A stretch of 25,990 bases of DNA from a virus. Each line of letters starts with the position of its first letter. Position 1 is the first letter of the stretch. Below, in pieces: positions 4,701 to 25,504 of the stretch. The stretch covers positions 1 through 25,990 of IMG/VR virus record IMGVR_UViG_3300021959_000332; one strand, given 5' to 3'. A program made the position numbers and the translations under genes. The notes beneath the pieces are model-generated. The model searched no databases, was not told the origin of the DNA, and was given only the letters and a program-made list of their open reading frames with translations.

Positions 4701-5713
4701 CTACCATCTGTTTTGAGTACTTGTCCACTAGAACCATCTGATACATTTAACTGATCAATACCAATTTGGTTATCATCAATATGTCGAGTAAGAATACTAT
4801 TTGATGCTATTTTTGTTCCATCAATAGCGTTATCTGCAACGTTTGCTGTAGCAATAGTGTTTGCTGCTATCTGTGTTGTTGTGATTGTTGCATCAGCTAT
4901 TTGATCTGCTGTGACCTGATTATCGTCTATGTGTCTAGTAAGAATACTATTTTGTGCAATCTTTGTACCGTCTACTGCATTATCTGCAATGTTTCCTGTT
5001 GCAATAGTATTTGCAGCGATCTGAGTTGTAGTAACTGTAGCGTCTGCTATTTGATCTGCTGTTACTTGGTTATCGTCAATGTGTTTTGTTAGAATTGAGT
5101 TTTGAGCAATCTTTGCTGAAGTTACAGCGTTAGTTGCTATTTGAGCTGTTCCTACTTTGCCATCTGCTATTGCATCTGAAACAGAGTACGAAGCTGAACC
5201 CATGTATCCATGACTGGAACATTGATAAAATAAAACTTGGGGAGTTGATGTAGTAACTGCAATCTGAGTATACGCTCCAGAAGAACCTGGAGTACCATTT
5301 GTTGTGACACCTGTTGTATAAGCAGTTGTTTTATCTGCTTCTAAATAAAATCGAAGTGGATGACCACTATTACTTGAATCTGCTTGATCAAATTTATATG
5401 TGTTGCCAGGTACAAGAAGTAAGTAAGGACTCTCTAAACCATCAATAGTATAACCACTAGAACTACCAGTACCATTATATGGATGTGCGGCAGTTTTTGT
5501 AACGACTTTCGTTACATAAGTTTGTGTCCCAAAAGGGTTTATACCCTGTGGAGCATAGGTTAATATTGCATCTCCGCTAGTATTTCCATCGACATGTTTT
5601 CTTAAAAAGAATTTTCCGTCTTTGGTATTAATACCCATTTCTCCTAACGCAAGGTTAGAAGTTGTAGGATTTGCACCAGCAGTATTTGACCGCTTTAGTT
5701 GTATTGTAGCCAT
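1730..5713 (-). CDS. Large modular tail fibre with cupredoxin-like domain, YadA-like head and C-terminal S74 chaperone (1327 aa)
   Basis: Modules in order: an N-terminal 'MATIQLKRS...LALGEMGI' virion-attachment-like segment (1-40); a cupredoxin-like domain (about 68-180) with H118, C165, H168 and M171; two 50-residue repeats (205-254, 255-304) and a third partial one; a glycine-rich hinge; three VYQ modules (near 555, 628, 700); more HIDD-type modules; and a YadA-like beta-roll head (about 915-1175) of 14-residue NTTG..N.A.G..AL repeats. The C-terminal Peptidase_S74 intramolecular chaperone begins at S1209. There, SDERKK gives the Ser and +5 Lys (K1214) spacing of the known self-cleaving dyad, and a heptad-like tail 'ALQEADDKIDAL' closes the protein. 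By family knowledge this domain trimerises the fibre and is released by autocleavage, here losing about 119 residues. The protein is probably a trimeric receptor-binding fibre; the ligand is unknown. Confidence 0.9.
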   Translation of the reverse strand: MATIQLKRSNTAGANPTTSNLALGEMGINTKDGKFFLRKHVDGNTSGDAILTYAPQGINPFGTQTYVTKVVTKTAAHPYNGTGSSSGYTIDGLESPYLLLVPGNTYKFDQADSSNSGHPLRFYLEADKTTAYTTGVTTNGTPGSSGAYTQIAVTTSTPQVLFYQCSSHGYMGSASYSVSDAIADGKVGTAQIATNAVTSAKIAQNSILTKHIDDNQVTADQIADATVTTTQIAANTIATGNIADNAVDGTKIAQNSILTRHIDDNQVTADQIADATITTTQIAANTIATANVADNAIDGTKIASNSILTRHIDDNQIGIDQLNVSDGSSGQVLKTDGSGTLSFGTVTSGGSASNSFETIAISGQSSVVADSSTDTLTLVGGTGITLTTNASSDTITITGTTGISANAVTATHIATGAVGASELAATAVTAGAYTNADITVDADGRITSASNGTATVADGAITTAKLADDAVSAAKLADTAVTAGTYGSTTVSPQITVDAQGRITNVSNQTISGGGGSGGIGLNQTVAVYEGSGDGSTTAFNTGTTITNEALTWVFIDGVYQEKGAYSTSGSTVTFSAAPPNGTSVEVNNLANLTTGGAFNHNSYNGDGSTTAFTLSKAPGSDTDLIVFIDGVYQNADSFNVSSTTLTFDTAPANSTKVIAYTIGGVVMGKASTVDTFNGNASTTAFTLSLDPVKEENTQVYVGGVYQPKGTYAVSGTTLTFSEAPPSGTGNIEVVINQITTLTDVGANAVTATSIAANAVGSAEIAANSVDSSELVTGSIDTIHIGDDQVTNAKLAVNSVSATELAGNSVTSTQIAANQVTSSEIAQNSILTIHIDDDQVTGDQLADAITVVTSVTTPLVDAAIVDGENFKINGGQGSDGQLLTSTGSGVAWEDAPAGGPTFKTFGTSSIMIGDNATGTINAANNNTGLGIDVFAALTEGDNNVAVGKSALTANTTGISNTAVGSQALEANTTGSYSVAVGELALKANTTGQNVAIGQAAMIANTTGTGNVAIGTYDNAQLQPLKTNTTGNHNVAIGSGSMSVATTSNDNTAVGYMSLRNLTTGTPNEAFGYRAGMSITTGYSNTVYGSYAMDNSTATGYGNTVIGHGSGRAMSSCNTNTLVGSAAGDSLTTGSGNVCIGYGAGHVFTTGGDNIYIGRGAGGAEYNAGTNRIVIGPDLNADGNNKVFIGKSGSAVSLNFTSSGSWSQSSDERKKQNIQNDILGLDFINDLRTVTYKWKSSADFPKDWSDYNEENTQDTDVVMHGMIAQEVKAALDKAGVSTFAGWHEQTDGMQMVSREMFILPLIKALQEADDKIDALTARIETLEG
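2070..2089 (-). other. Predicted S74 autocleavage site and catalytic dyad codons
   Basis: S1209 of the 1327-residue fibre is encoded by the codon at 2089-2087 and K1214 by the codon at 2074-2072. In characterised S74 chaperones such as phage endosialidase, cleavage is immediately N-terminal to a Ser, assisted by a Lys five residues later. The SDERKK motif fits this spacing. That cleavage takes place here is inference. Confidence 0.65.
4802..5101 (-). repeat. Two 150-bp (50-residue) tandem coding repeats plus a third partial unit
   Basis: Unit 1 (5101-4952) and unit 2 (4951-4802) each encode 50 residues starting NSILT(K/R)HIDDNQVTADQ and ending in NA(V/I)DGTKIA. A third unit starts at 4801 and diverges after about 12 residues. 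The protein copies are nearly identical, while many third codon positions differ. Related single modules lie at about 3190-3240 and 3340-3370, and in the next gene near 1600-1700 and 640-690. Confidence 0.85.
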
Positions 5714-11509: not shown

Positions 11510-14500
11510 TTAATCCGATATTAAAATTCGTTGATTGTTTCCTTGAAGTTGAATTTGTGCAGAAGAACCAACTGTTATTGTTGAACTTGCTGCGATATTT
11601 CCACCGTCAATTGTAGTAATATTACTTCCATCATTAAAAGTTCCGTTACTAAAAGTAACTACTCCTGTAAAGCTTGTAAGCTGAACAACACTACTATAAG
11701 CTACGGTTATTGTGCTTGATCCTGCTGACGATTCTGTTCCATAATATCGTACAGTCCACCAAAAATTTGATGAAGTAGCGTCTTGCGTTGTTGGACTATT
11801 TCTCCAAACATTGGTTGAACCGCTATCATTAATACCAGTACCTGATACTACTCCAGTACTAAAAGTATACGTAGTTCCACTTGGTGCACTCGGTGCTCCA
11901 CTACTGGTTTTTTCATAATAAAGATAACCTTGTATTGTTCTTAATCCTGCTGCTCCATCATTTCCATCATTTCCATCATTTCCATCATTTCCATCATTTC
12001 CATCTTGTCCAGCAGCACCAGTTGCTCCCTGTTTTGATTTTGTAAGAGTCTGTATTCTTGTAAAGGTTTTCGAAACTCCTGCTTCGTTTCTTACTGTAAT
12101 TGTAAAAGTTACTGAACCTACATCTGCACTTAAAGCACTGATATCTGCAAACCTTCTTGTATTTGAAGAGACAGTACTTGCACTTCCTACTGTAACACTT
12201 GAACCACTTGCTGAAATATTGAAAGTTGAATTTCCACTTGTTGCATAGTTTAATTGAGTTGTACCATTAAATACTTGAATATCTGTTCCTGATCCTGAAA
12301 AACTAGTTGGTGTTCCTGAAGTATTTGTAGGAACAGTATGTGCTTCATTTGATAGTATAATTGTAATAGCATCCACACCAGCTTTTAAACCAGCAATTGT
12401 CATTATGTCTCTTGCAAGAATTGTTCCTGAATTTGATCCTTCTCGTATCTGAACTTCCATCTTATCTGGCATATTATCAAAAGAAGATTGAGGTGTATAT
12501 GCATAAGTATTTGAAGTTGTATTTTGAACACTTGAGTCATTCTTAAAGAATTCATAATATACAGTTCCAGTTGTATTTACGGCTGTTGCAGTAATTGTTG
12601 TACTAGAAGGATCTGGACTTGCTCCATTTGTATTATATTCAATACTTTGATCTCCTGCAGTTAAGGCTACTCCACGGGCATCTGTACCTACAGATCCGTC
12701 TGCACCATCTGCTCCAGTAATACCTGCCGTAATTGCATAAACTATTTCAAAGGAGTAAGCAGTGCTGCCGTTTGTTACGACTTTCGCAATTATCGTATCT
12801 TTAAGAAAGTCAGGTTTAAAGCTTTGCTTAAATACATTATTACTACTATAGGCTCTTTGACTTACAGCATCTATAAACATTAAAGTATCACTTTCTATAC
12901 TTTGTACTTTTGCATAAGTTGCTTGTGCTGCAGTACCATTATCTAGTTTTACTAAATCTCCAGAGGCAAAATCACTTGTAAAAGAAGTACTAGATCCATC
13001 TATTTGGTTTGAGAATTGGGCGACAGTTATTGTTCCACTCGCCTGTGTTAGTCCGTTATTGGATGCTCCAACTTCTGCAAAATACTCTACAGCTGGGCTC
13101 ACATTTGAATCTGTTTTAAGTTCAACTGCTTTTAGATGATCTGAAGTTGCATCCGAATCAAAAAGTAGGAAAGCTGTTGCACTTGCTCCCATTCCTGAGA
13201 AAGCTTGTTGTGTATTTCCTGTACCCGTTCCTGTAAGAACATATTCTGTTCCATCTTTCCCTATAAAAGTATAGGTGGAAGATCCAATAGTAGCTACTCC
13301 TGTGTTTGTATTTATCGCAAGTGCTTGATTAAGCTGTCCTCCTACAGCTACTTGAGATTTATTAAAGCCTGCAATAGAAGGAACTTCATTTTTACCAACA
13401 GTTACTTTTCTTGTTATCCACGGAGAATAAGTATTTATAGTTGATATTGTTCTTACGTGTATATTATATGTGCCTACTTTTACATTTTCAAAAGTAAAAC
13501 TTTGATCTTCTCCATTTGTGATTATACTCTCAAAACCACCATTAAAACTATGTTTAAGTTCAAAACCTGAAATATTTTTATATTTTAATCCGTCTGATGT
13601 TAAAGGAGCGTTCCAAGTTACAGTTACTTTTACACCCCCTGAAGTTGGAACATCAACTGTTTCTCCTAAATCTCCAGATTCGGAATTCATAGGTTCTACC
13701 TTTGCAACTATATTTGTAGGTGCTGGTATAACATCATCTCTATCAGGAATTGCATCTGTTGGTACACTGTAAAGTGTGTATCCTCTGTCGACTGCTCCGA
13801 ATTTTGCTTTTGCAAACTCACTTGCAACAATTTGTACTTTTTGATCTTTATCTTCTTTTACTGATATAACTTTAAATTCTTTTGTTGTTCCAGTTTTTGG
13901 AGTACCATCACCATTAAAAAGTTGAAGTGCCCAAATAATTTCTGCGTCAGGTGTTGCACTAAAGGCAGAAGCTACTGTTAAACTAGACACATTTCCTGAA
14001 CTTGTTGATATATTTTGTTTTTCTACTCTTACATTCTCTGACCAAAAATTAAGAACCTTATCACCACTATCATCTTTTAAGTTAGCAGCTTCTTCTTGTG
14101 TATCGAGTGCACTGCCATCTTGATTTTCTAATAATAGATCTCCTCTATGGTAAGTTGCAGAATTAATAACTGCTATTTCTTGCTCTAAGTAACAACCCCC
14201 TTCTGGGTAAATAAGTAATAGTTGTGGAGGAAATGCTGCAGCGTAAGAAGGTAATGATATTGTTCTATCTAGTGGAATTACTGTGGTGCTTCTTGTGCCT
14301 GTATTTGAAACTCTTCCTGAATATTGGTATCCATCTTTATCTGCATCTTGAACACCTATAATATCGCCAGGTCTTAGTCCTATAGCATTAAGTCCGGTTG
14401 AAAAAGTAACAGTTTCTTTTTCAAGTTGTGCAGAAAGTAATTTCCATTTACCATATCTATGTGCTTGTGCACGAGAAGTACATCCAAAAGCTACTGAAGA

Positions 14501-16702
14501 CTCTCGTACTAGTCTGTTTGTACTTAATATATTTTGATGATCTTCTACATATTCGATTGCTTGTCTGTAATTGTCTGCTGGATCATTCCATGTTACTTTT
14601 ACTTGGTTAGTTCTTACTCTGTCTCCTGTTCCTTCATAGGTAAAAACTCCATTTTCAACATTACCTTTTGTAAATGTATATACAACCTCTTTTGGTCTAT
14701 CAGCTATAGCTACAATTTCTCCTTCTGACCATAGTACCATACCTCTAAATATACTTGCAATATCTCGCAGTACTTTTGTTGCTTCGGCAGTTTTGTCTAA
14801 GTAAAGATTGGCTGTAAAGCGAGGTTCTAATCCTCCTTCACCGTCTGAAACAAGTTCATCACAATATTTTGCAATTTCAAATAATGAATATTTATCTATA
14901 AGTGCGCTATCAACAAATTGCCCAACTCCATAGCGATTATTTGTAAGAATATCATAAAATACCCAAGCTGGATTATTACAGTATACTAGTTCTCTATTTG
15001 GGTGTCCTTCTGCCCATGTTGAACGATCTCCTCGAAATGATCCATTCCATGTCTGATAAGATGCTTCTTCTGAAACAGCGTAAGAAGGGGCAGAGCCACT
15101 TACTAATCGTGTATATTTTGCTGTGCCGTCTGAACTTTCATCCCTTGTTAAATAATTAGTAGGAACTTGAATTAGTTTACCTTTTAATTTATATGCTCTA
15201 CTTGGAAGTCCTCCGCTAAAGTCTTTTGCATTAAATACGTTTGCTGTATAAGCGGCATAAGGATAAGATAATCTATCTTTAGTTATATTTTCTACTGTTT
15301 TGAGACGAGAAGCATTTTGATGTTGAAAACTTCCATCTTTAAAATTATCATCAGTTATTCTTCTTACACGAATTCTATAATTAACAAAAGGTTGAAATTG
15401 TTCAACATTCATTACAAATTCTTCTATGTATTCAGAGTATTGTGCTTTCGAAGGTTTTACATACCCAGTGCTAGGTATAGAACCACTATTAACTCCATAA
15501 GTAACTTTATTCCCCCATTCAGGTGTTCTAGAAAGTAGTGTTGAATTAGAAGGTCCAAATGCCAAAGCACTAGTATAATTTGTTCCATCTGATGTGTATT
15601 CAAAGAACATCTGAAACTCTACAAAGCTTGGTCCCTTTGCTCCTGAGTTTTTAAATGCGTGCATTTCTGGAAAGCTAAAAGTAAGATGAACTTCGTCTAC
15701 TTCTTGGGGATTTGAAACTCCCATTGCTGCTGCTGTTAATACAGTATCTGAAGCAGAACCTTGACCATCATTGCCAGGTTCATCAATTCCATTTTTTGTT
15801 CCACCATTTGTTCCGTTATAGTTATTACCTAAACCAGAAAGACCTGATACTGCTGATAAATTTGCTTGTTTGAGTTCTACATTTGCATCATAAACTGTGC
15901 TTGAAGAACCTGTAAACCCTGGAGCTATTAAAGGTGCTTGTAGTGCATTTCCTGATGTTATTCCGAAAGAAACATGAGAAAAGTTTGCTAGTTGAGCAGA
16001 GTCTTCTAAAGAAGGTCCGCTTACTACACATAGAGCACCAGTTACGGCTGTAGGAGTAGCAACAGATAAGGTTGCGGTATTTCCTGAAATGGAACTGAGT
16101 GTTGTAACATGATCTTGAACTATATCTGCACTTGAAACTGTAGTAAATGCTCTTACACTTAGTTCTGCAACTGTTGCACTTACCATTTTCTTTATACCTG
16201 ATACAAGATCCTGTCCTCCTGGACCGGCACCTGCAATACGGATATATACTGGTAATCCTTTTCCTTGATTATCAATTATTGTTTGAGTAAAATAATTTGA
16301 AGAAGTTGTAACTTTTGAAGAGCCTGCACTGATACTTGCTATACCTGAGCCTTTTGTACCTGCTCCTACAATAGAAATAACTCTGCCACCTATAGCAAGT
16401 CCTGATTTATTATTATAACTAAGAGTGCGAATAGTTCCAAACTCACTTGCAGCTACAGAAGTACTGTTTGCGGTTGTATTTGCTGTAAATTTTCGAGGTT
16501 TGAGTATAGCATTATTTACCGAGTCAATTAAAGGAACGTCATTGTAGTAAACCGAAGAAAGATCATTTGATAAGCCTGCAATTGGTCCTTCTGCGAGTAA
16601 ATCGTAGACAATAGCTGTTTGTTCCTTATTAGGACTTTTTAGATCATAAGTTGCTTTAGTTCCAAAGCCTCTTGTACTGTATTTTGATGAATTATCTGCC
16701 AT
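11510..16702 (-). CDS. J: Tail tip attachment/host specificity protein, lambda J-like (1730 aa)
   Basis: This is the central tip fibre that plugs the tail tube and contacts the host. The N-terminus (ATYDLKSPNKEQ, then VYDLLAEGPIAGL near 20-45) is the conserved J opening. The core near residues 575-790 has the family motifs YDILTNNRYGVGQFVD, then CDELVSD, RFTANLYLD, DIASIFRGMVLWSEGEI, TNQVKVTWNDP and LRPGDIIGVQD. A fibronectin type III domain follows at about 985-1095. Collagen-like G-X-Y stretches lie near 1330 and 1560-1590, and the protein ends in a beta-rich fibre tip. Lambda J is 1132 residues; the extra length is a roughly 300-residue insertion near residues 50-350 and a long C-terminal extension. 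The gene lies directly after the I-like gene, as in lambda. Confidence 0.95.
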   Translation of the reverse strand: MADNSSKYSTRGFGTKATYDLKSPNKEQTAIVYDLLAEGPIAGLSNDLSSVYYNDVPLIDSVNNAILKPRKFTANTTANSTSVAASEFGTIRTLSYNNKSGLAIGGRVISIVGAGTKGSGIASISAGSSKVTTSSNYFTQTIIDNQGKGLPVYIRIAGAGPGGQDLVSGIKKMVSATVAELSVRAFTTVSSADIVQDHVTTLSSISGNTATLSVATPTAVTGALCVVSGPSLEDSAQLANFSHVSFGITSGNALQAPLIAPGFTGSSSTVYDANVELKQANLSAVSGLSGLGNNYNGTNGGTKNGIDEPGNDGQGSASDTVLTAAAMGVSNPQEVDEVHLTFSFPEMHAFKNSGAKGPSFVEFQMFFEYTSDGTNYTSALAFGPSNSTLLSRTPEWGNKVTYGVNSGSIPSTGYVKPSKAQYSEYIEEFVMNVEQFQPFVNYRIRVRRITDDNFKDGSFQHQNASRLKTVENITKDRLSYPYAAYTANVFNAKDFSGGLPSRAYKLKGKLIQVPTNYLTRDESSDGTAKYTRLVSGSAPSYAVSEEASYQTWNGSFRGDRSTWAEGHPNRELVYCNNPAWVFYDILTNNRYGVGQFVDSALIDKYSLFEIAKYCDELVSDGEGGLEPRFTANLYLDKTAEATKVLRDIASIFRGMVLWSEGEIVAIADRPKEVVYTFTKGNVENGVFTYEGTGDRVRTNQVKVTWNDPADNYRQAIEYVEDHQNILSTNRLVRESSVAFGCTSRAQAHRYGKWKLLSAQLEKETVTFSTGLNAIGLRPGDIIGVQDADKDGYQYSGRVSNTGTRSTTVIPLDRTISLPSYAAAFPPQLLLIYPEGGCYLEQEIAVINSATYHRGDLLLENQDGSALDTQEEAANLKDDSGDKVLNFWSENVRVEKQNISTSSGNVSSLTVASAFSATPDAEIIWALQLFNGDGTPKTGTTKEFKVISVKEDKDQKVQIVASEFAKAKFGAVDRGYTLYSVPTDAIPDRDDVIPAPTNIVAKVEPMNSESGDLGETVDVPTSGGVKVTVTWNAPLTSDGLKYKNISGFELKHSFNGGFESIITNGEDQSFTFENVKVGTYNIHVRTISTINTYSPWITRKVTVGKNEVPSIAGFNKSQVAVGGQLNQALAINTNTGVATIGSSTYTFIGKDGTEYVLTGTGTGNTQQAFSGMGASATAFLLFDSDATSDHLKAVELKTDSNVSPAVEYFAEVGASNNGLTQASGTITVAQFSNQIDGSSTSFTSDFASGDLVKLDNGTAAQATYAKVQSIESDTLMFIDAVSQRAYSSNNVFKQSFKPDFLKDTIIAKVVTNGSTAYSFEIVYAITAGITGADGADGSVGTDARGVALTAGDQSIEYNTNGASPDPSSTTITATAVNTTGTVYYEFFKNDSSVQNTTSNTYAYTPQSSFDNMPDKMEVQIREGSNSGTILARDIMTIAGLKAGVDAITIILSNEAHTVPTNTSGTPTSFSGSGTDIQVFNGTTQLNYATSGNSTFNISASGSSVTVGSASTVSSNTRRFADISALSADVGSVTFTITVRNEAGVSKTFTRIQTLTKSKQGATGAAGQDGNDGNDGNDGNDGNDGAAGLRTIQGYLYYEKTSSGAPSAPSGTTYTFSTGVVSGTGINDSGSTNVWRNSPTTQDATSSNFWWTVRYYGTESSAGSSTITVAYSSVVQLTSFTGVVTFSNGTFNDGSNITTIDGGNIAASSTITVGSSAQIQLQGNNQRILISD
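11955..12004 (-). repeat. Five perfect 9-bp tandem repeats encoding (Asn-Asp-Gly)n
   Basis: The plus-strand unit ccatcattt occurs five times without a mismatch from 11955 to 11999 and continues for 5 more bases. On the coding strand this encodes NDG five times inside a collagen-like G-X-Y stretch of the J-like protein. Perfect identity at DNA level suggests recent expansion. Any length change keeps the frame. Confidence 0.95.
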
Positions 16703-16712
16703 TTTATTTTAG

Positions 16713-17663
16713 TTACAGCTTTTGTACTGCGTCGTCGACTTGAGGAAACTTTGTTATTCCACCTGGGTTATCGAAAATATGATCCATTACTGCATCAAAA
16801 GTATTATTTCCTGTTCCTACCCATCCTGAAGCGGGTTGATTTGAAGGAGTACCTGCATTTGAGGTACCATAATTAGTATAAGTTCCACTATAAGGATTGG
16901 CTCCTACTCTTTGATTGCCCGAATCTGTAGATCCTATTATTGTAACTCCTTTCTTATATTGATTATGTAGTCCTGGTGTGTATCCTTGATAAATTGGTGC
17001 GCCACCGATTGTAAGTTCTCCATAGAGAAGTGGAACAGGTTTTCCCTGTTCAATGTGATTTTGTGCTCCATTAAATAAGTAAGAAGGATCGTTAGTTGTT
17101 TTATCTGGATCGGGTGCTGACATTTCTGCAAGACCCATAAGTGCTAAGTTTGCTCCTAGCATCATTACTGCTGAACCTGCTAAATTTAAGCTTGCTCCTG
17201 AAGCCAATGCTGCCGATACTGAAGTACCTGTGCCTAATGTTACTGTGCCTCCCACCATTGTTGTACCTGTAGCAAATGATCCTGCTAATGCTCCAGTTCC
17301 TCCAACAGTTGTTCCTCCAGTTGTCATTGCTGCTCCGAGTCCCGGCATAAAAAAGAAAGCTGCTAGCATTAGTAATCCTGTGATTAATTTTCCTAATCCC
17401 TTTCCAGAACCTGCAGGTACTGGAGTAATTATTAGTTCTTCTCGTGCAATATTTAGATATAATTCTGGAAACTCCTCTATAAGAGTATCTCCACTTTGTA
17501 TAGAGAATTCGATATTTTTTAAATGACAGTCTAAAAGATATTCTTGTAATCCTTCAGTTTGTACATGAATACATTTTAATATATCACGAACATTCGTATC
17601 GACGCACTCCCACTCAGAACCGAACTTGTCTCCCATTTCTCCCATTAATTTAACGTGGGTCAT
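16713..17663 (-). CDS. I: Tail assembly protein, lambda I-like (316 aa)
   Basis: The protein starts MTHVKLMGEMGDKFG and has a ubiquitin-like N-terminal domain, a hydrophobic glycine-rich centre (GKLITGLLMLAAFFFMPGLG), and the family's C-terminal signature FNGAQNHIEQGKPVPLLYGE. These match the lambda I tail-tip assembly family. I place the start at 17663, not at the upstream in-frame ATG at 17696. AAAGGAG lies 9 bases before 17663, and homologues begin at this point; the upstream ATG would add 11 poorly fitting residues inside the K-like gene. It overlaps the K-like gene by 14 bases and is followed 10 bases later by the J-like gene. It is needed for tip assembly in lambda. Confidence 0.9.
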   Translation of the reverse strand: MTHVKLMGEMGDKFGSEWECVDTNVRDILKCIHVQTEGLQEYLLDCHLKNIEFSIQSGDTLIEEFPELYLNIAREELIITPVPAGSGKGLGKLITGLLMLAAFFFMPGLGAAMTTGGTTVGGTGALAGSFATGTTMVGGTVTLGTGTSVSAALASGASLNLAGSAVMMLGANLALMGLAEMSAPDPDKTTNDPSYLFNGAQNHIEQGKPVPLLYGELTIGGAPIYQGYTPGLHNQYKKGVTIIGSTDSGNQRVGANPYSGTYTNYGTSNAGTPSNQPASGWVGTGNNTFDAVMDHIFDNPGGITKFPQVDDAVQKL

Positions 17664-17985
17664 AAATAAATTCTCCTTTCTCTGGGTACGATACAATTAA
17701 GTATGGTACACCAAGACTTTTACATACATTCTTGTCATGCTCACTTGGATGACAATTTGAGCCGTAGTGACTATGGACTACATATTTTATTTTTGAAATA
17801 ATCGAGTATCGAACCCATTGTTTTGGGTCAATTGCAAAGTGCTCATTCTCAGAACTTTGATTTTCCAGAGGAATATATTTCAATTCATCTTCGATTTCAA
17901 TAACAAGTCCACAAGCTTCTTTTGGACTTTCTTCTTTTACTTGCTTATATATTTCAGGTAGAAGTCTACTTAAATTTTCTTGCAC
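17650..17985 (-). CDS. JAB/MPN metalloprotease, N-terminal half of lambda K (111 aa)
   Basis: A complete JAMM zinc motif is visible: H71-S-H73, seven residues, S81, two residues, D84, with the partner E23 in KEACGLVIE. In lambda, K has a JAB domain followed by an NlpC/P60 peptidoglycan hydrolase; here the protein ends right after the JAB domain (EKGEFIYDPR). The start is GTG at 17985, preceded by GGAGG with 8 bases of spacing. An earlier TTG at 18000 is in frame but overlaps that ribosome binding site. The start lies inside the 3' end of the L-like gene, a 20-base overlap. Its position between L and I matches lambda K. Its likely role is in tip assembly or processing; the substrate is unknown. 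Confidence 0.88.
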   Translation of the reverse strand: MQENLSRLLPEIYKQVKEESPKEACGLVIEIEDELKYIPLENQSSENEHFAIDPKQWVRYSIISKIKYVVHSHYGSNCHPSEHDKNVCKSLGVPYLIVSYPEKGEFIYDPR

Positions 17986-19213
17986 CAGGAAATCCTCCAA
18001 AAGGTAAAGATTTTTGACTATTCTTTGTTGTACTTCCTGTTGAAGCAGAAGCTGTACTTAATGGATTATATCCAAATCTACATGAACATGAGGTTAGTCT
18101 TTTACCACATGAGTCTCCTCTTTCCCAATAACTATTGAATCCGGGAGCAGTATTCGCTCCTGTTGTTTGTGTACGAGTTGCTTTCCATAAATGTGTTTTT
18201 CCACCACTCGTATATGCAACATAATCATTATGTCTATCTTCTGTATAGGCATAATAATTTGCACTTGCACTGTATGTACCATGTACTCTTATTCTTTCAA
18301 AATTACCATTTGTATCTGAAGGAGTTCCAGGACTACTTGCTGCTGTTGTAGCTTGCCAATAGTTATTAATTGTTCCTCCATTTGCACTTGCGTCTATAGT
18401 ACCGTTTGGCTTTAACCTTTGTATACCCGTAGTTGCTAGTGTAGTAGTAGTTTTATAATAAGTATCTTTTGTAACTGCTCCGCTAGTATAAGTTGTGAAA
18501 CTAGTAGTTGAAGGAATAACATACTCATCATCTTGAGTTACATAGACAGTATGAGTAACATCTGTTCCGCTACCGTTTGTCATAATAAGCTTAGATTCTT
18601 CTGACCAAGTACATCCACCATTATCTGTACTTGCATTTATTTTATTTGGAGAAGCTCCTTGATATACCCATGAACAGGCATTATTACCAATAACACGATA
18701 AGGAAGTACTAGTCCTTCTACATCAAAAGGTGTTGTAAGTTCAAAAGATATTTCTATAGCATTTTCTTGTTCGATTCTATCAATGATAAAAACTTGTCTT
18801 GGAAATTCTACAGGAGTATTTCCTGAGCCTGTGTCCGCTGTTCCATCTTTTAAATATTTTCGTAAAGTTTTTCTTCTATAAAGTTTCTTTCCAATAAGAT
18901 CATTTGGTTCTAAACTACCTAGTGCATCTCCGAAAGTGCTTAGTATATTTGCAAAAGTAATTACAGGTCTTGCAGCTGTTCCTTGTGATTTTACTTCAAA
19001 ACCTTCTGCTTGAAGTGGAATTGCATCATAAGTATTTAATTGACTATTTGTATCATAATCGTACATTTGTACATTTGTTAAATCTGCATCTTCTCCTCGA
19101 GTAAAATAAGCTCGACTTGATCCATCAGCATCAAGTGCAAGTTCATATAGAATTACTAAACCAGATTCTTCTTCAAGAGATTGTAGCTCTTTGATTGCAA
19201 TTTTTTCCGTCAT
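17966..19213 (-). CDS. L: Minor tail protein, lambda L-like, Fe-S binding, with a large insertion (415 aa)
   Basis: The N-terminal 180 residues follow the L family (DAIPLQAEGFEVKSQGTAAR, GKKLYRRKTLRKYL, FPRQVFIIDR). The cluster cysteines remain: C180 (NNACSWVYQG), C201 (NGGCTW), C369 and C376 (CGKRLTSC, with an extra C378), followed by RFG and LPFGGFPG. Lambda L is about 232 residues and binds an iron-sulfur cluster through four cysteines in its C-terminal domain. Here about 167 residues separate the second and third cysteines. This insertion carries two aromatic carbohydrate-binding-like segments (YWQATT; HNDYVAY, HLWKATR, SYWERG). The start overlaps the M-like stop as ATGA. It is a tail tip component between M and the JAB protein. 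Confidence 0.92.
   Translation of the reverse strand: MTEKIAIKELQSLEEESGLVILYELALDADGSSRAYFTRGEDADLTNVQMYDYDTNSQLNTYDAIPLQAEGFEVKSQGTAARPVITFANILSTFGDALGSLEPNDLIGKKLYRRKTLRKYLKDGTADTGSGNTPVEFPRQVFIIDRIEQENAIEISFELTTPFDVEGLVLPYRVIGNNACSWVYQGASPNKINASTDNGGCTWSEESKLIMTNGSGTDVTHTVYVTQDDEYVIPSTTSFTTYTSGAVTKDTYYKTTTTLATTGIQRLKPNGTIDASANGGTINNYWQATTAASSPGTPSDTNGNFERIRVHGTYSASANYYAYTEDRHNDYVAYTSGGKTHLWKATRTQTTGANTAPGFNSYWERGDSCGKRLTSCSCRFGYNPLSTASASTGSTTKNSQKSLPFGGFPGARKFK
17994..17998 (-). promoter_or_regulatory. Ribosome binding site deciding a GTG start
   Basis: GGAGG on the minus strand stands 8 bases before the GTG at 17985. It overlaps the alternative in-frame TTG at 18000-17998, making that TTG an unlikely start. 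Confidence 0.7.
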
Positions 19214-19605
19214 GCTTCGTATACTCTTTTAAATGTTGCTGTTAAACTATAAAAGTTTTCGTATGCCCAAGTTTGATCCCACTTATCACATACGCATTTA
19301 ATTGTTTCTGTGCTAGAACCTGCATTGCTGTCTTCTAAGTCAAAACGAAATTTACTCACTCCACCAAGTGACTCAAAAAATGCCACTAAATCATCTATTT
19401 CTGCTTTTGGTCGAGTAGAAAAACTTACGCTTATAGTTTGTTCTAAATTATTAATTCCATCTGCCAGTCTTTGTTCGTACCCATCTCCAAAAGTTACTAC
19501 ATGAACTTTTGGTTTACTAGCACGTTTTAGTCCTTTATCTGGTTGTACTGGTGCACTGAAACCTGTAATATTTGATCCATTATTTTGCATTATTCCAAAA
19601 GCCAT
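19210..19605 (-). CDS. M: Minor tail protein, lambda M-like (131 aa)
   Basis: The motif VVTFGDGYEQRLADGINN, then FSTRPKAEIDDLVAFFES and FRFDLEDS, ending YSLTATFKRVYE, is typical of the lambda M family of minor tail proteins, at the usual length. M forms a ring at the tail tip between the tape measure end and the L layer. It follows the tape measure gene by 3 bases and overlaps the L-like gene by 4 bases (ATGA), the same order as in lambda. Confidence 0.93.
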   Translation of the reverse strand: MAFGIMQNNGSNITGFSAPVQPDKGLKRASKPKVHVVTFGDGYEQRLADGINNLEQTISVSFSTRPKAEIDDLVAFFESLGGVSKFRFDLEDSNAGSSTETIKCVCDKWDQTWAYENFYSLTATFKRVYEA

Positions 19606-19608
19606 TTA

Positions 19609-22600
19609 TTAACCTCCACCTAATACGCCGCCAGGACGTTTTTCTCTTTGTAATGTTTCCATAACTGCTGCTTGTATTGACATACCAAGTGCTTGCGCTT
19701 GCTCTGCATTTCCTGTGCTACTTGCATTTCCGCCTGCATCTACATTAATTGTTACATTGTTTGTTCCTGCTCCACTTCCCATCATTTCTACAGGAATTCT
19801 TCTTCCGTCTGGTAAAGGTACTACAGCTTCATTGTGTCTTCCTTCTCCAACCATTACTGTAGGAGAAGTGGCAATTCCACCAGTTCCAAAACGTTTTGTA
19901 CCTACAGAAGTATATCCTCCAGAAGCCATTCCTCGAACAGGTATAATACCTCCCTGTGCAAATCCCATAAATCCAGTTACTGAAGCTGCCATTTTCATTG
20001 CAGCTATTTTTGCCATTTCTTGTAGTACTAGAGTTGCTAAAGATTTAAAAGCATCTTTTGCACTTGCGGAACCAGTTGCTATATCTTCAAACATTTTTTG
20101 TATTCCTTGTGAGAAAGTATTCTGTAGTTTTCCAGCAAGTGTTATTGAGTGTGCATAGGCTTTTTCTTGTTCCTGTGCTACAGCTAGTTGTTTCTGTGCT
20201 ATTGCTAAATTGTGTTCATCTAAGGGAGTCTTAACTTTAATTAAATCTAATTCATCTACTTTAGCTTGTCTTTTTTCTTTTGCTATTCTTAAATCTTCTA
20301 GTTTTATATCTTCTTTTGCAAAGGTGGCTGCAGCTCCTTTTTTATTTGCATTTCTTGCTCCTGCTACTTTATTATCAAGTGCGTCTAGTTCTAATTGTCT
20401 TCGAGCATCTATTACGTTTCCTAAGCCTTCTGCAAATCTATCTAGTGCTGCTGTCATATCGTCTAGCGATGTTCCTTCTGCTCTTGAGCCAAATACAGAT
20501 TCGTAAATTTTTTGAACAACACTTTCTTTATTATCACCTGTAAGTTTTATTGTTTGATCTAAATTGTTATAACTTGAAAGAAGTTCATCTAAAGGATTTC
20601 GTTTACTAAGTTTACCATATTGCTGTACAAATCCTGAAATAGTATTATTTATTTGTTTGAAAGCAGTATTTTGTGCACCTGCTTTTAGAGTTACATTTTT
20701 AAGTCCATCTGTTAGTTTTTCTGTAGATATCTCGCCTTTTTCATACTGGCTAAATAAGTCGGCAATTGTTGGGTTTATTCCCCCTAAATCTTTTCCGTAT
20801 TTAATTAAAGCGCTTCGTTGTTTTTCTAGTTGGTCGGCGGTAAATGCATCTTCTCCTGTTCTGCTTTCCATTCCTTTAAGTCTTGCAGCTGCCCCTTGAA
20901 TTCCGGAACTTGCTATAGTTGCTACATTTGCTTCGAATTGCTGTCCTGCTGATTGATCAAGTCCTTCTCTAGCAGATATCATTTCTTTGAACTCAGTATG
21001 TAGACTTTTTAATTTTTCTTGAGCAGATTCAAATTGATCTGCAAGTATTGAACCAGGTCTTTCTTTCTTTGCTTTATGTGCCATTTCTCCAATAAAACCT
21101 TCCCCAGATTCAAGTTGTCCTTCAATACTATCTGCGATTCCGGCAAGTTTTTCTTGTGCAAATTCTCCGCCTGCTTTATAAAATTTACCTACAAGTGGGA
21201 TTCCACTTAAAAAGTTTGCTAGTTTTGCAATTCCATTTCCTACGAATCGTATTGCAGTTGCAAATCCTTGCATTACTTTATCAAAGTTTGCTTGTAAAGC
21301 TTTTAAACCATCCATTGCTAGTTGTATAAAACCAAATATAGCTACAGCTCTAAAAGCTAAATTAACAGCTCCTGCTGCACCTTTTGCAGCTATTGCCATT
21401 CCTTTAAATGCTACTTTTGCAGCTATTGCCATTCCTTGGAAAGTTCCTTTTATAGCAATTCCTGTTAACTTCAGACCAGTTCTCATAGTCATATTAGTTT
21501 TACTGCTTTCAATTTCCATTTGTTTCAATGAACTTCTAAAGCCACGAACTTTTTTGATATTTTCTCCTGCAAATATACCAGTTGTTATTTTTCCGTGCCT
21601 TTTGTACTCTGCCTCTGCTTTTTTCAAGGCTCCTTTTAATCCACTCATTTGTTGTCGAGTTAGATTTTCACCTTTTTTCAAAGCATTTATACCTGACGAT
21701 TTTAAAGCTGCCTTACTATCAAATCCTTGTGATAATTTTTTGGCTTTTGCTGTTCCTTGTCCTCCGAGTTGACTTTTAAATTCAGCTGCACTTCCTTTCA
21801 TGCTTCCGAAACTATCTCCTATTCCTGCAGCAAATTTTCCTATTCTACTATTATCTATTTTTGCAGAGAGTTCATCAAATGCTGGAAGCACTGATTTTAA
21901 AAGTGTAGAAGCAAAAATAGCAAGTACTGCTACTGCTGATTTTATATTTTCGGTAAAGAATCCTGCAAGTACTTCTGCGATTGGAGTGATAAATTCCATT
22001 GCTTTATCTTTTAAATCAATAAAAGTTGCAATTAATTTATTAAATTGGTTAACGGGAACAGCATCTCCTACTGCTCCATATTTTTCTTCTGATTGGGTTA
22101 AAACTTCATTTAAAACTGCTTGTGATTTTTCAAAAGTGGTTAAATCTTTTGCAGATTTACCTATTGCTTGTGCATACTTTTTTGTAGCAGGTTCTAATCG
22201 TAGAATAATACCTAATTCATCGAGTAGTTCTGGTTCAGCTTTTGTAACACCTCGAACAAGACGATTAAAAGAATCTTCAAAATCTCTACCGAGTGCGGTT
22301 GATGCTCCTCTTGCTGCCGTTGCGATTGCTCCCATTTGATCTTCACTAAATCCAGCTGCTAACATTATTTGAGATGATTGTGCTGCTTGTCTAAAGTCTA
22401 ATTGATGTCCTGTTGCTTCTTGTAAATTTTTTGATAAACTTTTTACCATAACTCCAGAGTTAGCAGCAAATGCTCTCATACCTTGATTTAATACACGAAA
22501 GTCTGCGGCTTGTTGTAATCCTCTAAATACAGCTCCTAATGCAAACATTTGAGCAGCTAAAGTAGCATACGCAGGCACAAGACCACCACTGACTCCTTGA

Positions 22601-22788
22601 GCCATTTTTGAAAAGTTTTTTGTGGTATTGGAAGATGCTTGAGCAGCACCTTTTAAGCGTCTATCAACGGTATGGGCAGATTTACCTGTATTGTCTAACT
22701 GCTTACCTAAAGCTTTTGCTTGTTTTTTAGTAAGAGTTAATTCCTTACCATCAACGTTGATTTTTATTTTTACTTCGTTTTTTGCCAT
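19609..22788 (-). CDS. H: Tail tape measure protein, lambda H-like (1059 aa)
   Basis: This long, mostly helical, Lys/Ala/Gln-rich protein sets tail length. The N-terminus (MAKNEVKIKINVDGKELTLT, with KQAKALGKQLDNTG) leads into the conserved tape measure core near 60-240. Hydrophobic stretches lie near 66-90, 286-305 and 450-492, where GMAIAAK occurs twice. A coiled-coil region is near 835-885. The C-terminus has the usual glycine-rich tape measure ending (FAQGGIIPVRGMASGGY, then GEGRHNEAVVPLPDGRRIP). With the usual 1.5 angstroms per residue, 1059 residues would correspond to a tail of roughly 160 nm. The start overlaps the stop of the chaperone frameshift product by one base (TAATG), which couples the two. 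No lytic domain is evident. Confidence 0.95.
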   Translation of the reverse strand: MAKNEVKIKINVDGKELTLTKKQAKALGKQLDNTGKSAHTVDRRLKGAAQASSNTTKNFSKMAQGVSGGLVPAYATLAAQMFALGAVFRGLQQAADFRVLNQGMRAFAANSGVMVKSLSKNLQEATGHQLDFRQAAQSSQIMLAAGFSEDQMGAIATAARGASTALGRDFEDSFNRLVRGVTKAEPELLDELGIILRLEPATKKYAQAIGKSAKDLTTFEKSQAVLNEVLTQSEEKYGAVGDAVPVNQFNKLIATFIDLKDKAMEFITPIAEVLAGFFTENIKSAVAVLAIFASTLLKSVLPAFDELSAKIDNSRIGKFAAGIGDSFGSMKGSAAEFKSQLGGQGTAKAKKLSQGFDSKAALKSSGINALKKGENLTRQQMSGLKGALKKAEAEYKRHGKITTGIFAGENIKKVRGFRSSLKQMEIESSKTNMTMRTGLKLTGIAIKGTFQGMAIAAKVAFKGMAIAAKGAAGAVNLAFRAVAIFGFIQLAMDGLKALQANFDKVMQGFATAIRFVGNGIAKLANFLSGIPLVGKFYKAGGEFAQEKLAGIADSIEGQLESGEGFIGEMAHKAKKERPGSILADQFESAQEKLKSLHTEFKEMISAREGLDQSAGQQFEANVATIASSGIQGAAARLKGMESRTGEDAFTADQLEKQRSALIKYGKDLGGINPTIADLFSQYEKGEISTEKLTDGLKNVTLKAGAQNTAFKQINNTISGFVQQYGKLSKRNPLDELLSSYNNLDQTIKLTGDNKESVVQKIYESVFGSRAEGTSLDDMTAALDRFAEGLGNVIDARRQLELDALDNKVAGARNANKKGAAATFAKEDIKLEDLRIAKEKRQAKVDELDLIKVKTPLDEHNLAIAQKQLAVAQEQEKAYAHSITLAGKLQNTFSQGIQKMFEDIATGSASAKDAFKSLATLVLQEMAKIAAMKMAASVTGFMGFAQGGIIPVRGMASGGYTSVGTKRFGTGGIATSPTVMVGEGRHNEAVVPLPDGRRIPVEMMGSGAGTNNVTINVDAGGNASSTGNAEQAQALGMSIQAAVMETLQREKRPGGVLGGG

Positions 22789-23626
22789 TATTTTTTCTTA
22801 ATATTTGCTGAGGATATGTGAGTATTCTTTCCTTTATTCTCACGAGCTTTTCTTTGTCGCTCTAAATCCTTATTCAATTTCATTGCGTATCTTGCTTCTA
22901 TATTCTTCAAAAAATAACAAACTATTTGCTTATCGTCTACTTCCCAGACATCTAGTAAAGTTCCTAAAGCAGATAAGTCCTTTCCGAAATACGATCCACT
23001 CATTCCATCCCATCTATCGGGTAAAAGATCGTGCAATAAAAAAGCCACCTGAACTTCAAGGGGAAAGTCCCCACGAGTTGGTGGCATTTCGTTCGGATCG
23101 GGATCTATACCTTTTTGTTCACATATATCTAAGTATACGTCTAAAGATATCTGACCGTCTCTGTATGTTTCATCAAGTAGTTCTAAAACTTTTTCTACTT
23201 GACTCGAGTAAAATTTTCTAAATCACCTGTTACTTCTGTAACCCAAGTGTCGAAATCAGCTGCATTTTTCATCAGCGTTTCAGCGTTTTCTTGAGAGAAT
23301 TCAAGTTCATCGTCGGGATTAAGACTACTAATGTCCACCAATAGAAGCTCTTCGAGGTAAGAATATTTTAAGCCTTTCCATCCTTTGATTACAGCTTTTA
23401 CATACTCTACTAAAAATTTATCTTCATCTAATTGTTCGTCAAAAGCTCTTGTTTTACGATTAAACTTTTGAGATAAGCAACGATTTCGTAATTTTAGTAG
23501 TTCTTCTCTTGCTAAATAGCAAAGATCAACTGAAAATCCAGCCATTCCTGGATAGTCTACTGAAACTGTTTTGCTTGGAGTTAATAAACTCGCTAGTGAT
23601 ACTGATTTGTTTTCTTGTTCTGTCAT
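22788..23626 (-). CDS. Tail assembly chaperone, G-T-like -1 frameshift product (279 aa)
   Basis: The first 139 residues are those of the shorter chaperone (to F139). Ribosomes slipping back one base at A AAT TTT then read YSSQVEKVLELLDETYRDG, continue through ICEQKGIDPDPNEMPPTRGD and VAFLLHDLLPDRWDGMSGSY, and end KKK at 22788. The -1 frame is open from 23222 to 22788, far upstream of its first ATG at 23087, and the residues before that ATG look coding and conserved. This supports a fused product over independent initiation. In lambda, G and G-T coat the tape measure during tail assembly and are absent from the virion. The stop overlaps the tape measure start. Confidence 0.9.
23173..23216 (-). 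promoter_or_regulatory. Programmed -1 ribosomal frameshift signal
   Basis: The slippery heptamer A AAT TTT lies at 23216-23210 in the zero frame. A 7-base spacer follows (23209-23203). A perfect 8-bp stem then pairs TCAAGTAG (23202-23195) with CTACTTGA (23180-23173) around a 14-base loop. A ninth G-T pair is possible. The zero-frame TAG stop is the last codon of the left arm. Heptamer, spacing and stem are all of the standard -1 type. Confidence 0.9.
23195..23626 (-). CDS. Tail assembly chaperone, G-like (143 aa)
   Basis: The main zero-frame product is MTEQENKSVSLASLLTPSKT, then YPGMAGFSVDLCYLAREELL, with KLRNRCLSQKF, and ends TRVK at a TAG. Size, acidic character and position between the tail tube and the tape measure match the lambda G type chaperones, although sequence resemblance to lambda itself is weak. 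Its stop codon lies in the stem of the hairpin that follows the slippery heptamer. AGGA lies 9 bases before ATG. Most ribosomes should end here, giving excess G over G-T, as in other siphophages. Confidence 0.88.
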   Translation of the reverse strand: MTEQENKSVSLASLLTPSKTVSVDYPGMAGFSVDLCYLAREELLKLRNRCLSQKFNRKTRAFDEQLDEDKFLVEYVKAVIKGWKGLKYSYLEELLLVDISSLNPDDELEFSQENAETLMKNAADFDTWVTEVTGDLENFTRVK

Positions 23627-23647
23627 TCTGGTTCCTGGTTAAACGAG

Positions 23648-23665
23648 GGGAGGGTTGCCCCTCCC
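23648..23665 (-). terminator. GC-rich hairpin directly after the tail tube gene
   Basis: On the minus strand GGGAGGG, the tetraloop GCAA (a stable GNRA type) and CCCTCCC form a perfect 7-bp stem, 8 bases after the tail tube stop. The sequence after it (CTCGTTTAACC) has only a short T run, so termination would be partial. It may instead protect the 3' end of the tube message. It also lies upstream of the chaperone start. Confidence 0.6.
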
Positions 23666-23673
23666 TTCTAAAA

Positions 23674-24987
23674 TTAAGTTACTGTTGGTCCAATAAAGAT
23701 TAAATCTAATTCGTCCACAGCGTCAACTGAGGTTGGTAAGGCGTGGAAGTTTGTTTCCAAGCTTACAATATCTTCCATTGAATGTGTAGGTACTTCAAGA
23801 TGGCAATTATTCATATTCATAACCATTCTTGGAGTATTTCCTGTTCCACCTACAGTAAATGTCAAATCAAATGAATTTGTTATTACTGAAGTAGATTCAA
23901 TGAGATCCTCAAATAAATCTGCACTAGATGCACCAGATGAAGGAGTATTTAAGTAACAAGTAAAGTTACCTGATACAGAACGAGTTCCTGTAACATGTCC
24001 TAAAGGCTGGTTTACAATGCCTAGTGTTTCTGGTGTTAGGAAAGTAATATTATTTGAAATACTAACGTTTCCACCAGTTAATGTTAATGTATAAGTATCA
24101 GTCATACCTACATTTGAGAAAGTAAGTGTTGCTCCGTCTGCGATAGACATTGCTGCACTTAGTGTCAAAGTAGTGCCTGATATTGCAGATACAGTTGTGC
24201 CTGCAGTTACTCCAGTTCCTGAAACAACCTGTCCAACTTTGATTAATGAACTACCATTATCCAAAGTAACAGATGCAGAACTTGAAACTGCTCCGTTAAC
24301 TGTGTCTGTTACAACATCATTAGTTAAGACTAAATCTGTTAATCTATTTCTAATAAAGTTGTTAGTATCGGCTGCTGCTGTTCCTTCATACTTAGTTGCA
24401 GTTGTCATTGAAGTTTCTTCAGTAATAATTTTACCAAATCCTGACCAGTTTGCTGTTGCAATACCGTCAATATCAAAATCAATTGAAACTTCATTTACAA
24501 CACAGCCTTCTATCTTGTAAATAGTTGAACTAGCTTTACCACTGCCCATTTCAAAGAATAAGTCAAAGGTATCTAGTGCTACTTTGTTTGAATTTGTAAA
24601 AGCTATATTTGCGTCTGTGCCATCAGCTGTTAAAGCTGTTCCAGATGCGCCTACTGCTCCACTTCCTGCTAAAGCATTCCATAGAGGCTCTTCAACCATG
24701 TGATGAGCTACTGCTGAATGTTCTCCGCCTGATCCTGCCCCACCAGATTTAAAAGGTCTGATGTAGGTTTGAAATGACCATTCTGCAGGAGCGTAAGAAT
24801 CTGTAAACATTTGTCTCGCTCTTCTGCTGACACCTGCTGCGGTTGCCATTTCGTTCAATGTAACTTCTGTTGCATTGGTTGCTTGAGAAAAACTAAATCC
24901 ATCTAGTACTGGTATCTTATAGATTGCTCCTGCGCTATCAGTAAGGTGGACTAAGGTATCCCTCGAAAAATAAAATGTATCTGCCAT
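23674..24987 (-). CDS. Major tail tube protein, lambda V-like, with inserted surface domain (437 aa)
   Basis: The protein starts MADTFYFSRDTLVHLTDSAG and has a tail-tube type fold by pattern (LDGFSFSQATNATEVTLNEM, EWSFQTYIRPF, EEPLWNALAG). It lies between the terminator-type and chaperone genes, where the major tail protein is expected. Residues about 226-293 (DNGSSLIKVGQVVSGTGVTA, GTTVSAISGTTLTLSAAMSI) are a repeat-type beta segment usually seen in fibres and adhesins, and I read them as an insertion facing outwards. The tube core resumes with MTDTYTLTLTGG. The ATG has AGGAG 8 bases upstream. Hairpins stand on both sides of the gene, consistent with separate control of this abundant protein. 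Confidence 0.88.
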   Translation of the reverse strand: MADTFYFSRDTLVHLTDSAGAIYKIPVLDGFSFSQATNATEVTLNEMATAAGVSRRARQMFTDSYAPAEWSFQTYIRPFKSGGAGSGGEHSAVAHHMVEEPLWNALAGSGAVGASGTALTADGTDANIAFTNSNKVALDTFDLFFEMGSGKASSTIYKIEGCVVNEVSIDFDIDGIATANWSGFGKIITEETSMTTATKYEGTAAADTNNFIRNRLTDLVLTNDVVTDTVNGAVSSSASVTLDNGSSLIKVGQVVSGTGVTAGTTVSAISGTTLTLSAAMSIADGATLTFSNVGMTDTYTLTLTGGNVSISNNITFLTPETLGIVNQPLGHVTGTRSVSGNFTCYLNTPSSGASSADLFEDLIESTSVITNSFDLTFTVGGTGNTPRMVMNMNNCHLEVPTHSMEDIVSLETNFHALPTSVDAVDELDLIFIGPTVT

Positions 24988-25022
24988 TTTACATTCTCCT
25001 ATTTTTGCTTTGAAAAGGGGTC

Positions 25023-25041
25023 AGCAAGACTTTTGTCTGCT
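25023..25041 (-). other. Small hairpin before the tail tube gene
   Basis: On the minus strand AGCAGAC, loop AAAA and GTC-T-TGCT form a 7-bp stem with one bulged T. It lies between the terminator-like gene and the tail tube start, and is followed by GACCCCTTTTC. It is too weak to be a firm terminator; it may be a processing or attenuation site. The rest of 24988-25054 holds only the tube gene's ribosome binding site. Confidence 0.4.
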
Positions 25042-25054
25042 TATCCGTTTTCAT

Positions 25055-25504
25055 TTAATATTGAACTTCAGCTAAAACTTCGCCTATGCCCAATGGTTCT
25101 AAAACTCCTTCATCTGTGTCTACACTAAGTATACTTGTTTGTATAGTATTTACTGTAGCACCTAAAGGGTCTGTATAAGTTAAAGGGTTATTGCCCTCTA
25201 GTATTGTTTCTACATCTTCTAATAATTTTTCTAATGCTGTAACAGAATCTTCTTCATTTACATAACAACGAAAAGTTAGAGTTAGAAATCTAAATTTTTG
25301 TCCTGCTCCCAAGTATTCTCTTCTTTCTGCTCCAGCACTAACATGTACTGCTGGAAATTCTAAAACTTCATCCCAGAATTTTATTCTGCCAGAGGTTTCT
25401 GCAATAGCACTTTTAAATTGTCCTGTGCCATCTACAGTATTTAGTAGTCCAACATATGCATTTACTATGCTGCTTCTTCTAGTTGTATACTCTCTTGCTG
25501 CCAT
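25055..25504 (-). CDS. Tail terminator/completion protein, lambda U-like (149 aa)
   Basis: The small alpha/beta protein begins MAAREYTTRRSSIVNAYVGL, has FPAVHVSAGAERREYLGAGQ and FRCYVNEEDSVTALEKLLED, and ends GEVLAEVQY. Length, the 'R..I...Y..LL' helical start, the 'P.V.V..G.E' strand and the 'R.Y..EE......LE.LL.DVE..L' segment match the tail terminator family. That protein caps the tube at the head-proximal end. The gene stands just before the tail tube gene, as in lambda. It starts 2 bases after the upstream stop. The family call rests on pattern and position. Confidence 0.75.
   Translation of the reverse strand: MAAREYTTRRSSIVNAYVGLLNTVDGTGQFKSAIAETSGRIKFWDEVLEFPAVHVSAGAERREYLGAGQKFRFLTLTFRCYVNEEDSVTALEKLLEDVETILEGNNPLTYTDPLGATVNTIQTSILSVDTDEGVLEPLGIGEVLAEVQY

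Follow-up and report, generated by a model that had tools for sequence, protein, structure and literature searches.

The locus described here raises the question whether two overlapping open reading frames (ORFs) in a phage tail operon represent two genes, or a single gene whose second half is reached by a programmed change of the reading frame. It is located in an IMG/VR virus record of 25,990 bases, which was analyzed at its full length and is called the window in the following. The features of the locus are all encoded on the minus strand. Here, the first ORF, called G (23195–23626), encodes a short tail assembly chaperone of 143 amino acids (phrog_313, E 7e-13), and the second ORF (22788–23222), called T, is open in the −1 frame and matches the tail assembly chaperone family phrog_3914 (E 7e-14). 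The preliminary description of this DNA had proposed a complete −1 frameshift cassette, which produces a tail chaperone pair of the G/G-T type known from phage lambda. The comparative evidence presented below makes it very probable that this is a programmed −1 ribosomal frameshift of that type.

The tail module of the window

The G/T pair is placed between the upstream major tail protein gene (23674–24987; phrog_3575, E 6e-47, with tblastn matches to T5-like major tail proteins) and the downstream gene of the tape measure protein (19609–22788; phrog_3779, E 6e-44). Among cultured phages, relatives of G, the −1 ORF and the major tail protein are found in the T5-like group, at identities below 60%. 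The tail module as a whole is mosaic: the tube, chaperone and terminator genes (19609–25504) match T5-like proteins and the tip genes (11510–19605) match the lambda-type M, L, K and J families. Furthermore, a repetitive tail fiber ORF of 1327 amino acids is present at 1730–5713, whose C-terminus (SDERKKQNIQ...) presumably resembles an intramolecular chaperone domain. Searches of the window against Rfam and for tRNAs gave no match. Matches within genome contigs were confined to two MAG contigs binned as Gammaproteobacteria and Euryarchaeota, which are probably stray viral contigs.

The assignment to the chaperone families is consistent throughout the homologs, since all 62 aligned G homologs match phrog_313 and all 63 T homologs match phrog_3914, both being families of tail assembly chaperones. 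Scans of G and T against Pfam and NCBIfam were without a match, the family scans gave no sequence match to lambda G or T, and searches of the PDB sequences with profiles of G and T returned chance matches only. AlphaFold2 models were obtained with a mean pLDDT of 93.8 for T and a pLDDT of 80 for G. Foldseek revealed nothing significant in the PDB for either protein. When its candidates for G were aligned using VIA-align, YqbN came first with Z 5.6, followed by the HK97 tail assembly chaperone at 5.1, and the next structure reached 3.1. The two best values lie in the range of 5–6, where VIA-align warns of common arrangements.

Together, the matches to phrog_313 and phrog_3914, the gene order and the weak similarity of the G model to the HK97 chaperone fold support the lambda-like chaperone role that had been proposed for G/G-T. 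As in lambda gpG/gpGT, the order is major tail protein, chaperone and tape measure protein, the chaperone is encoded by two overlapping ORFs, and a site of the X XXY YYZ type near the end of G precedes a second ORF in the −1 frame. The lambda heptamer is G GGA AAG. In contrast to lambda, the window contains the heptamer A AAT TTT and a strong, conserved hairpin.

Anatomy of the frameshift cassette

The end of the G ORF reads ...GAT TTA GAA AAT TTT ACT CGA GTC AAG TAG. The slippery heptamer A AAT TTT (23210–23216) lies in the zero-frame register (GA|A AAT TTT|ACT) and is followed by the 7-nt spacer ACTCGAG (23203–23209), the 5′ arm of a stem, TCAAGTAG (23195–23202), a loop of 14 nt (23181–23194) and the 3′ arm CTACTTGA (23173–23180). 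The two arms form 8 Watson-Crick pairs ending at 23173; including an outer G-U gives 9 pairs. The 5′ arm ends with the zero-frame stop codon TAG (23197–23195), which therefore lies inside the stem. In the −1 frame, no stop codon occurs from 23222 until the TAA at 22790–22788, and a T domain of 140 residues extends from the Tyr at 23210 to the Lys at 22791. This results in a zero-frame product of 143 and a −1 fusion of 279 amino acids. Thus, the heptamer, spacer and 8-bp stem in register, the stop codon within the stem and the sizes of both products, all part of the preliminary description, were found as stated there.

Such an arrangement would hardly be expected by chance. A census of the 20 main minus-strand genes of the window (8250 codon positions) identified 45 in-register X XXY YYZ heptamers, of which only A AAT TTT of this cassette has an 8-bp stem at a suitable spacing. 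An 8-bp stem occurs at 0.27% of the codon positions, corresponding to about 0.1 expected after 45 heptamers. An SD-like sequence, AGGTGAT (23222–23228), is located 5 nt upstream of the heptamer and was considered as a possible, weak stimulator. Its anti-SD pairing in the relatives exceeds the synonymous null only modestly (mean z −0.8), but the value is larger in the +1 clade described below (−1.6), where no sensible position is present, and a stimulatory role is not claimed.

Conservation of the slippery heptamer

Alignment of the closest relatives (80 loci, 83–100% identity) revealed AAATTTT in register and 19 nt before the stop codon in all 80, with the spacing kept. Since two of the clades are too divergent for a joint alignment search, further homologs were located by degenerate DNA patterns anchored on the C-terminus of G. 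A pattern scan demanding neither TTT nor the following base added 120 loci, most of them with the heptamer, and 185 of the 304 homologs located have the heptamer A AAT TTT and a T ORF in the −1 frame. Within the non-redundant relatives, AAT and TTT are each present at the site in 111 of 111 sequences, as compared to 67% and 82% elsewhere in the gene, although these relatives are not independent and the conservation counts overstate the number of events. Three loci deviate from the heptamer, each solely in its first base (GAATTTT in L192, TAATTTT in L211 and L215), and the stem is kept in these. A scan of the whole viral collection found TTC in place of this TTT only in L266 and L267; the heptamer of both is G GGA AAC, and their slip site does not include this Phe codon. 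Therefore, the heptamer is invariant, or nearly so, across a clade of more than 180 contigs. In one further relative, L046, the T ORF lacks its tail and stop codon (around 3100–3160), and its frame runs on into that of the tape measure protein for 1287 codons past the site, which reflects either a real deletion or an assembly error.

The conserved, A/T-rich tract A4T4 (GAAAATTTT) might also be thought to act on the level of transcription, where slippage of the polymerase would give an insertion or deletion in the mRNA and replace slippage of the ribosome. Polymerase slippage usually requires homopolymer runs longer than four. Moreover, the conservation follows the codon register and the stem at the ribosomal distance, and one relative (L298) substitutes GGGAAATTTT, a change that is compatible with tRNA re-pairing. 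A transcriptional origin of the shift is hence considered extremely improbable.

A conserved and covarying stem

The region following the heptamer folds with a mean dG of −11.9 kcal/mol as compared to −5.0 kcal/mol in synonymous shuffles, in which the amino acids of T are preserved, and all 111 sequences are below their own null. Two main stem geometries are observed: 66 sequences are window-like, and in 33 the 3′ arm lies 9 nt, that is three codons, nearer. By parsimony, on a tree built without the residues of the arms, the geometry changes at least seven times, three of these changes being forced by well-supported branches. The relocation of the 3′ arm could also have occurred by recombination, and the sequences do not represent independent events.

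In the first geometry, 84% of the cells pair and 55 cells are changed on both sides, in comparison to 21 in the shuffles and at most 17 when the arms are slid. These double changes include the combinations TAG/CTA versus TAA/TTA. In the second geometry, 95.8% are paired and one pair flips from C-G to G-C in 10 of 31 sequences. The stem, whose co-variation in related genomes had been suggested as a check, is thus present with compensatory changes in every close relative examined.

Hairpins are common and the 3′ arm codes for Leu-Leu, and the stem might accordingly be a by-product of the amino acid sequence, in this case a Leu-rich helix in T, or a terminator. This is very unlikely: shuffles that preserve the amino acids lose the stem, the stop codon in the 5′ arm (TAG or TAA) covaries with CTA or TTA in the 3′ arm while other pairs also change on both sides, and the 3′ arm moves by three codons yet still pairs. 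Homologs that do not use the A AAT TTT site have no stem at this place; when the corresponding region was folded against shuffles in the +1 and GGGAAAC clades, no comparable structure was revealed.

The second ORF is probably read via the frameshift

The first ATG in the −1 frame (23085–23087) is the start that gene callers would pick, giving a gene of 99 amino acids in the ORF listing. T could therefore be a separate gene, which is translated from this ATG by re-initiation, with the heptamer and the stem as by-products. The position of the ATG is indeed often conserved, the first in-frame ATG being found at codon 41–43 past the site in 81 of 111 relatives. The preliminary description had regarded a conserved start with a ribosome binding site at 23087 as an argument against the frameshift. 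In the relatives, however, the often conserved ATG comes without a ribosome binding site: of 111 relatives, a single one shows an SD-like motif ahead of its first in-frame ATG, and the mean anti-SD pairing (−2.84) is no better than that of random coding sequence (−2.62), as opposed to −4.93 for the starts of G.

In addition, the 40 codons upstream of this ATG evolve as a protein in the −1 frame. Between the stop codon of G and the first in-frame ATG, the mismatches at T-frame codon positions 1, 2 and 3 amount to 1663:925:3595, which is a protein-coding pattern in the −1 frame on the evidence of these alignments. In 95 of 111 relatives, the open T frame contains no ATG, GTG or TTG ahead of codon 20. 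An independent start would also leave the invariant AAT TTT and the covarying stem unexplained. Taken together, re-initiation at 23087 is highly improbable. The ATG is probably an internal Met codon, whose frequent conservation reflects a conserved Met residue within the domain, and T would be produced via the frameshift.

Proposed mechanism and a possible link to the tape measure protein

From the anatomy, the conservation, the covariation and the homology described above, we infer the following course of translation. Most ribosomes would read the G ORF up to the TAG codon (23197–23195) and release the 143-residue G protein. A minority would slip back by one base with the Asn-tRNA on AAT and the Phe-tRNA on TTT, so that A AAT TTT is re-read as AAA TTT. 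The hairpin, located about 7 nt downstream and holding the zero-frame stop codon, would favor this slip. Slipped ribosomes would then continue in the −1 frame and produce the 279-residue G-T fusion. In analogy to lambda, many G and few G-T proteins would coat the tape measure protein, and the T domain would recruit the major tail protein. This coating and recruitment would allow the tail to grow to the right length.

The frameshift may further be linked to the synthesis of the tape measure protein itself. Its ATG overlaps the stop codon of T by one base (TAATG, 22786–22790), without an SD sequence. The same overlap is found in 73 of 109 relatives of the clade of the window, nearly all others being within a few bases, and anti-SD pairing revealed no SD enrichment at the tape measure starts of this clade. 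In the GGGAAAC and +1 clades, gaps are present between the stop codon of T and the start of the tape measure gene. Due to the TAATG overlap and the missing SD sequence, only frameshifted ribosomes would reach the junction, and therefore the shift may also set the output of the tape measure protein. Tape measure starts may hence be coupled to termination of T, a hypothesis derived from the gene arrangement.

Homologs with other signals and a probable opposite direction

Not all homologs use the signal of the window. At 43 loci of an uncultured clade (L112, L126, L154 and L276 among them), homologous G and T ORFs are again connected via the −1 frame. In contrast to the window, the heptamer is G GGA AAC, it is located one codon upstream and no adjacent stem is present. 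Here, single sequences 30–105 nt downstream fold better than synonymous shuffles; a search for a consensus structure in this clade did not identify one. In L298, the slip site GGGAAATTTT contains the heptamers GGGAAAT and AAATTTT overlapping in register, and this locus is possibly a bridge between the two slip signals.

The T homologs of T5 and other Demerecviridae are encoded in the +1 frame. The G proteins of the clades share 27–44% identity. All 64 classified +1 homologs, among which Aeromonas AhSzq-1 and AhP_Mru1 are not counted because their records are too broken, carry TTT CGN where the alignment places the Phe codon TTT of the window, and no −1 homolog does; the window itself has TTT ACT with T in the −1 frame. 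In most +1 homologs, the +1 frame is closed by a stop codon ending 5 nt ahead of this TTT, and the stop of G follows 9–60 nt after it, and therefore the frame has to change within a short stretch around TTT CGN. At the site, TTT is used in 23 of 23 sequences of this clade, compared to 52% elsewhere in the gene. In two deposited records, L309 (Aeromonas AhSzq-1; region 2942–3265) and L092, the T ORF is split into short frames, probably by sequencing indels.

For T5 (L094, AY543070), the chaperone ORFs are T5.143 and T5.142 by the locus tags of the record (around 96624–97458). They resemble the pair of the window in their homologous G and T domains, their place in the tail operon and the Phe codon at the G/T junction; they differ in having T in the +1 frame and a TTT CGN site without an in-register heptamer or stem. 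The site is TTT CGT, and the end of T5.143 reads CTAGATACTTTTCGTAGC. The 26 +1-frame codons that separate this site from the annotated T5.142 start include no ATG, GTG or TTG. Nevertheless, this stretch behaves as coding sequence: in 28 T5-like loci, 5, 1 and 16 variable columns fall on the first, second and third +1-frame codon positions, and for the whole +1 set the mismatches are 402:123:1045. Two phages new to the comparison, Enterobacter KKP_3711 and Providencia PSTCR5, fit the +1 prediction. The T5-like records inspected annotate G and T as two genes, and the study on phage Sugarland describes a chaperone, similar to T5, without a predicted frameshift signal (PMC6256483). Based on these alignments, the T5-like chaperone ORFs appear to be a +1 frameshift pair that was missed in annotation.

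Mechanistically, re-pairing of the tRNA from UUU to UUC before CGN would lead to the +1 shift. A −2 shift would reach the same frame and was not adopted for this clade, since the re-pairing from TTT to TTC is simple and no repeat supports a shift by −2. Influenza A PA-X is expressed via a +1 site UUU CGU. The T5-like candidate shares UUU CGN with this site, although gene and host are unrelated and the −1 site of the window is of a different kind.

On trees of the fusion proteins calculated without the trait residues, the direction changes once (SH-aLRT 97 in a quick tree; 98/93 and 97% of bootstrap trees in a careful tree), and since these trees are unrooted they give no polarity of the change. 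A likely reading of all observations is that one gene is shifted in opposite directions at the same Phe codon, by +1 at UUU CGN in the T5-like clade and by −1 in the clades of the window and of GGGAAAC. The direction would have changed once and the signal and stem geometry more often, and in the clade of the window the shift may gate the tape measure protein via TAATG. It is known that tailed phages use −1, −2 or +1 shifts in different phages, with the tail chaperone of haloarchaeal HSTV-2 probably being made by a +1 and that of phage Mu by a −2 shift (reviewed by Atkins; PMC5009743). HSTV-2 and Mu likewise obtain the same product pair via different directions, but these are different phages, whereas the present case concerns a single family of homologous genes, in which both directions occur at the same codon. 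A switch of direction at a single codon of a homologous chaperone gene was not found described in the literature searched, which covers the key papers incompletely.

Conclusions

The cassette of the window itself is a canonical −1 signal of the G/G-T type, and the comparison within the family is the more interesting part. The cassette corrects the gene calls in a large and abundant group of uncultured marine phages. If the start of the tape measure protein is coupled to termination of T, the shift would in addition set the supply of this protein. For the T5-like clade, the comparison concerns a classic laboratory phage, whose chaperone has no predicted frameshift signal according to PMC6256483. 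More generally, the comparison makes it testable how a programmed frameshift may switch its direction and still yield both products.
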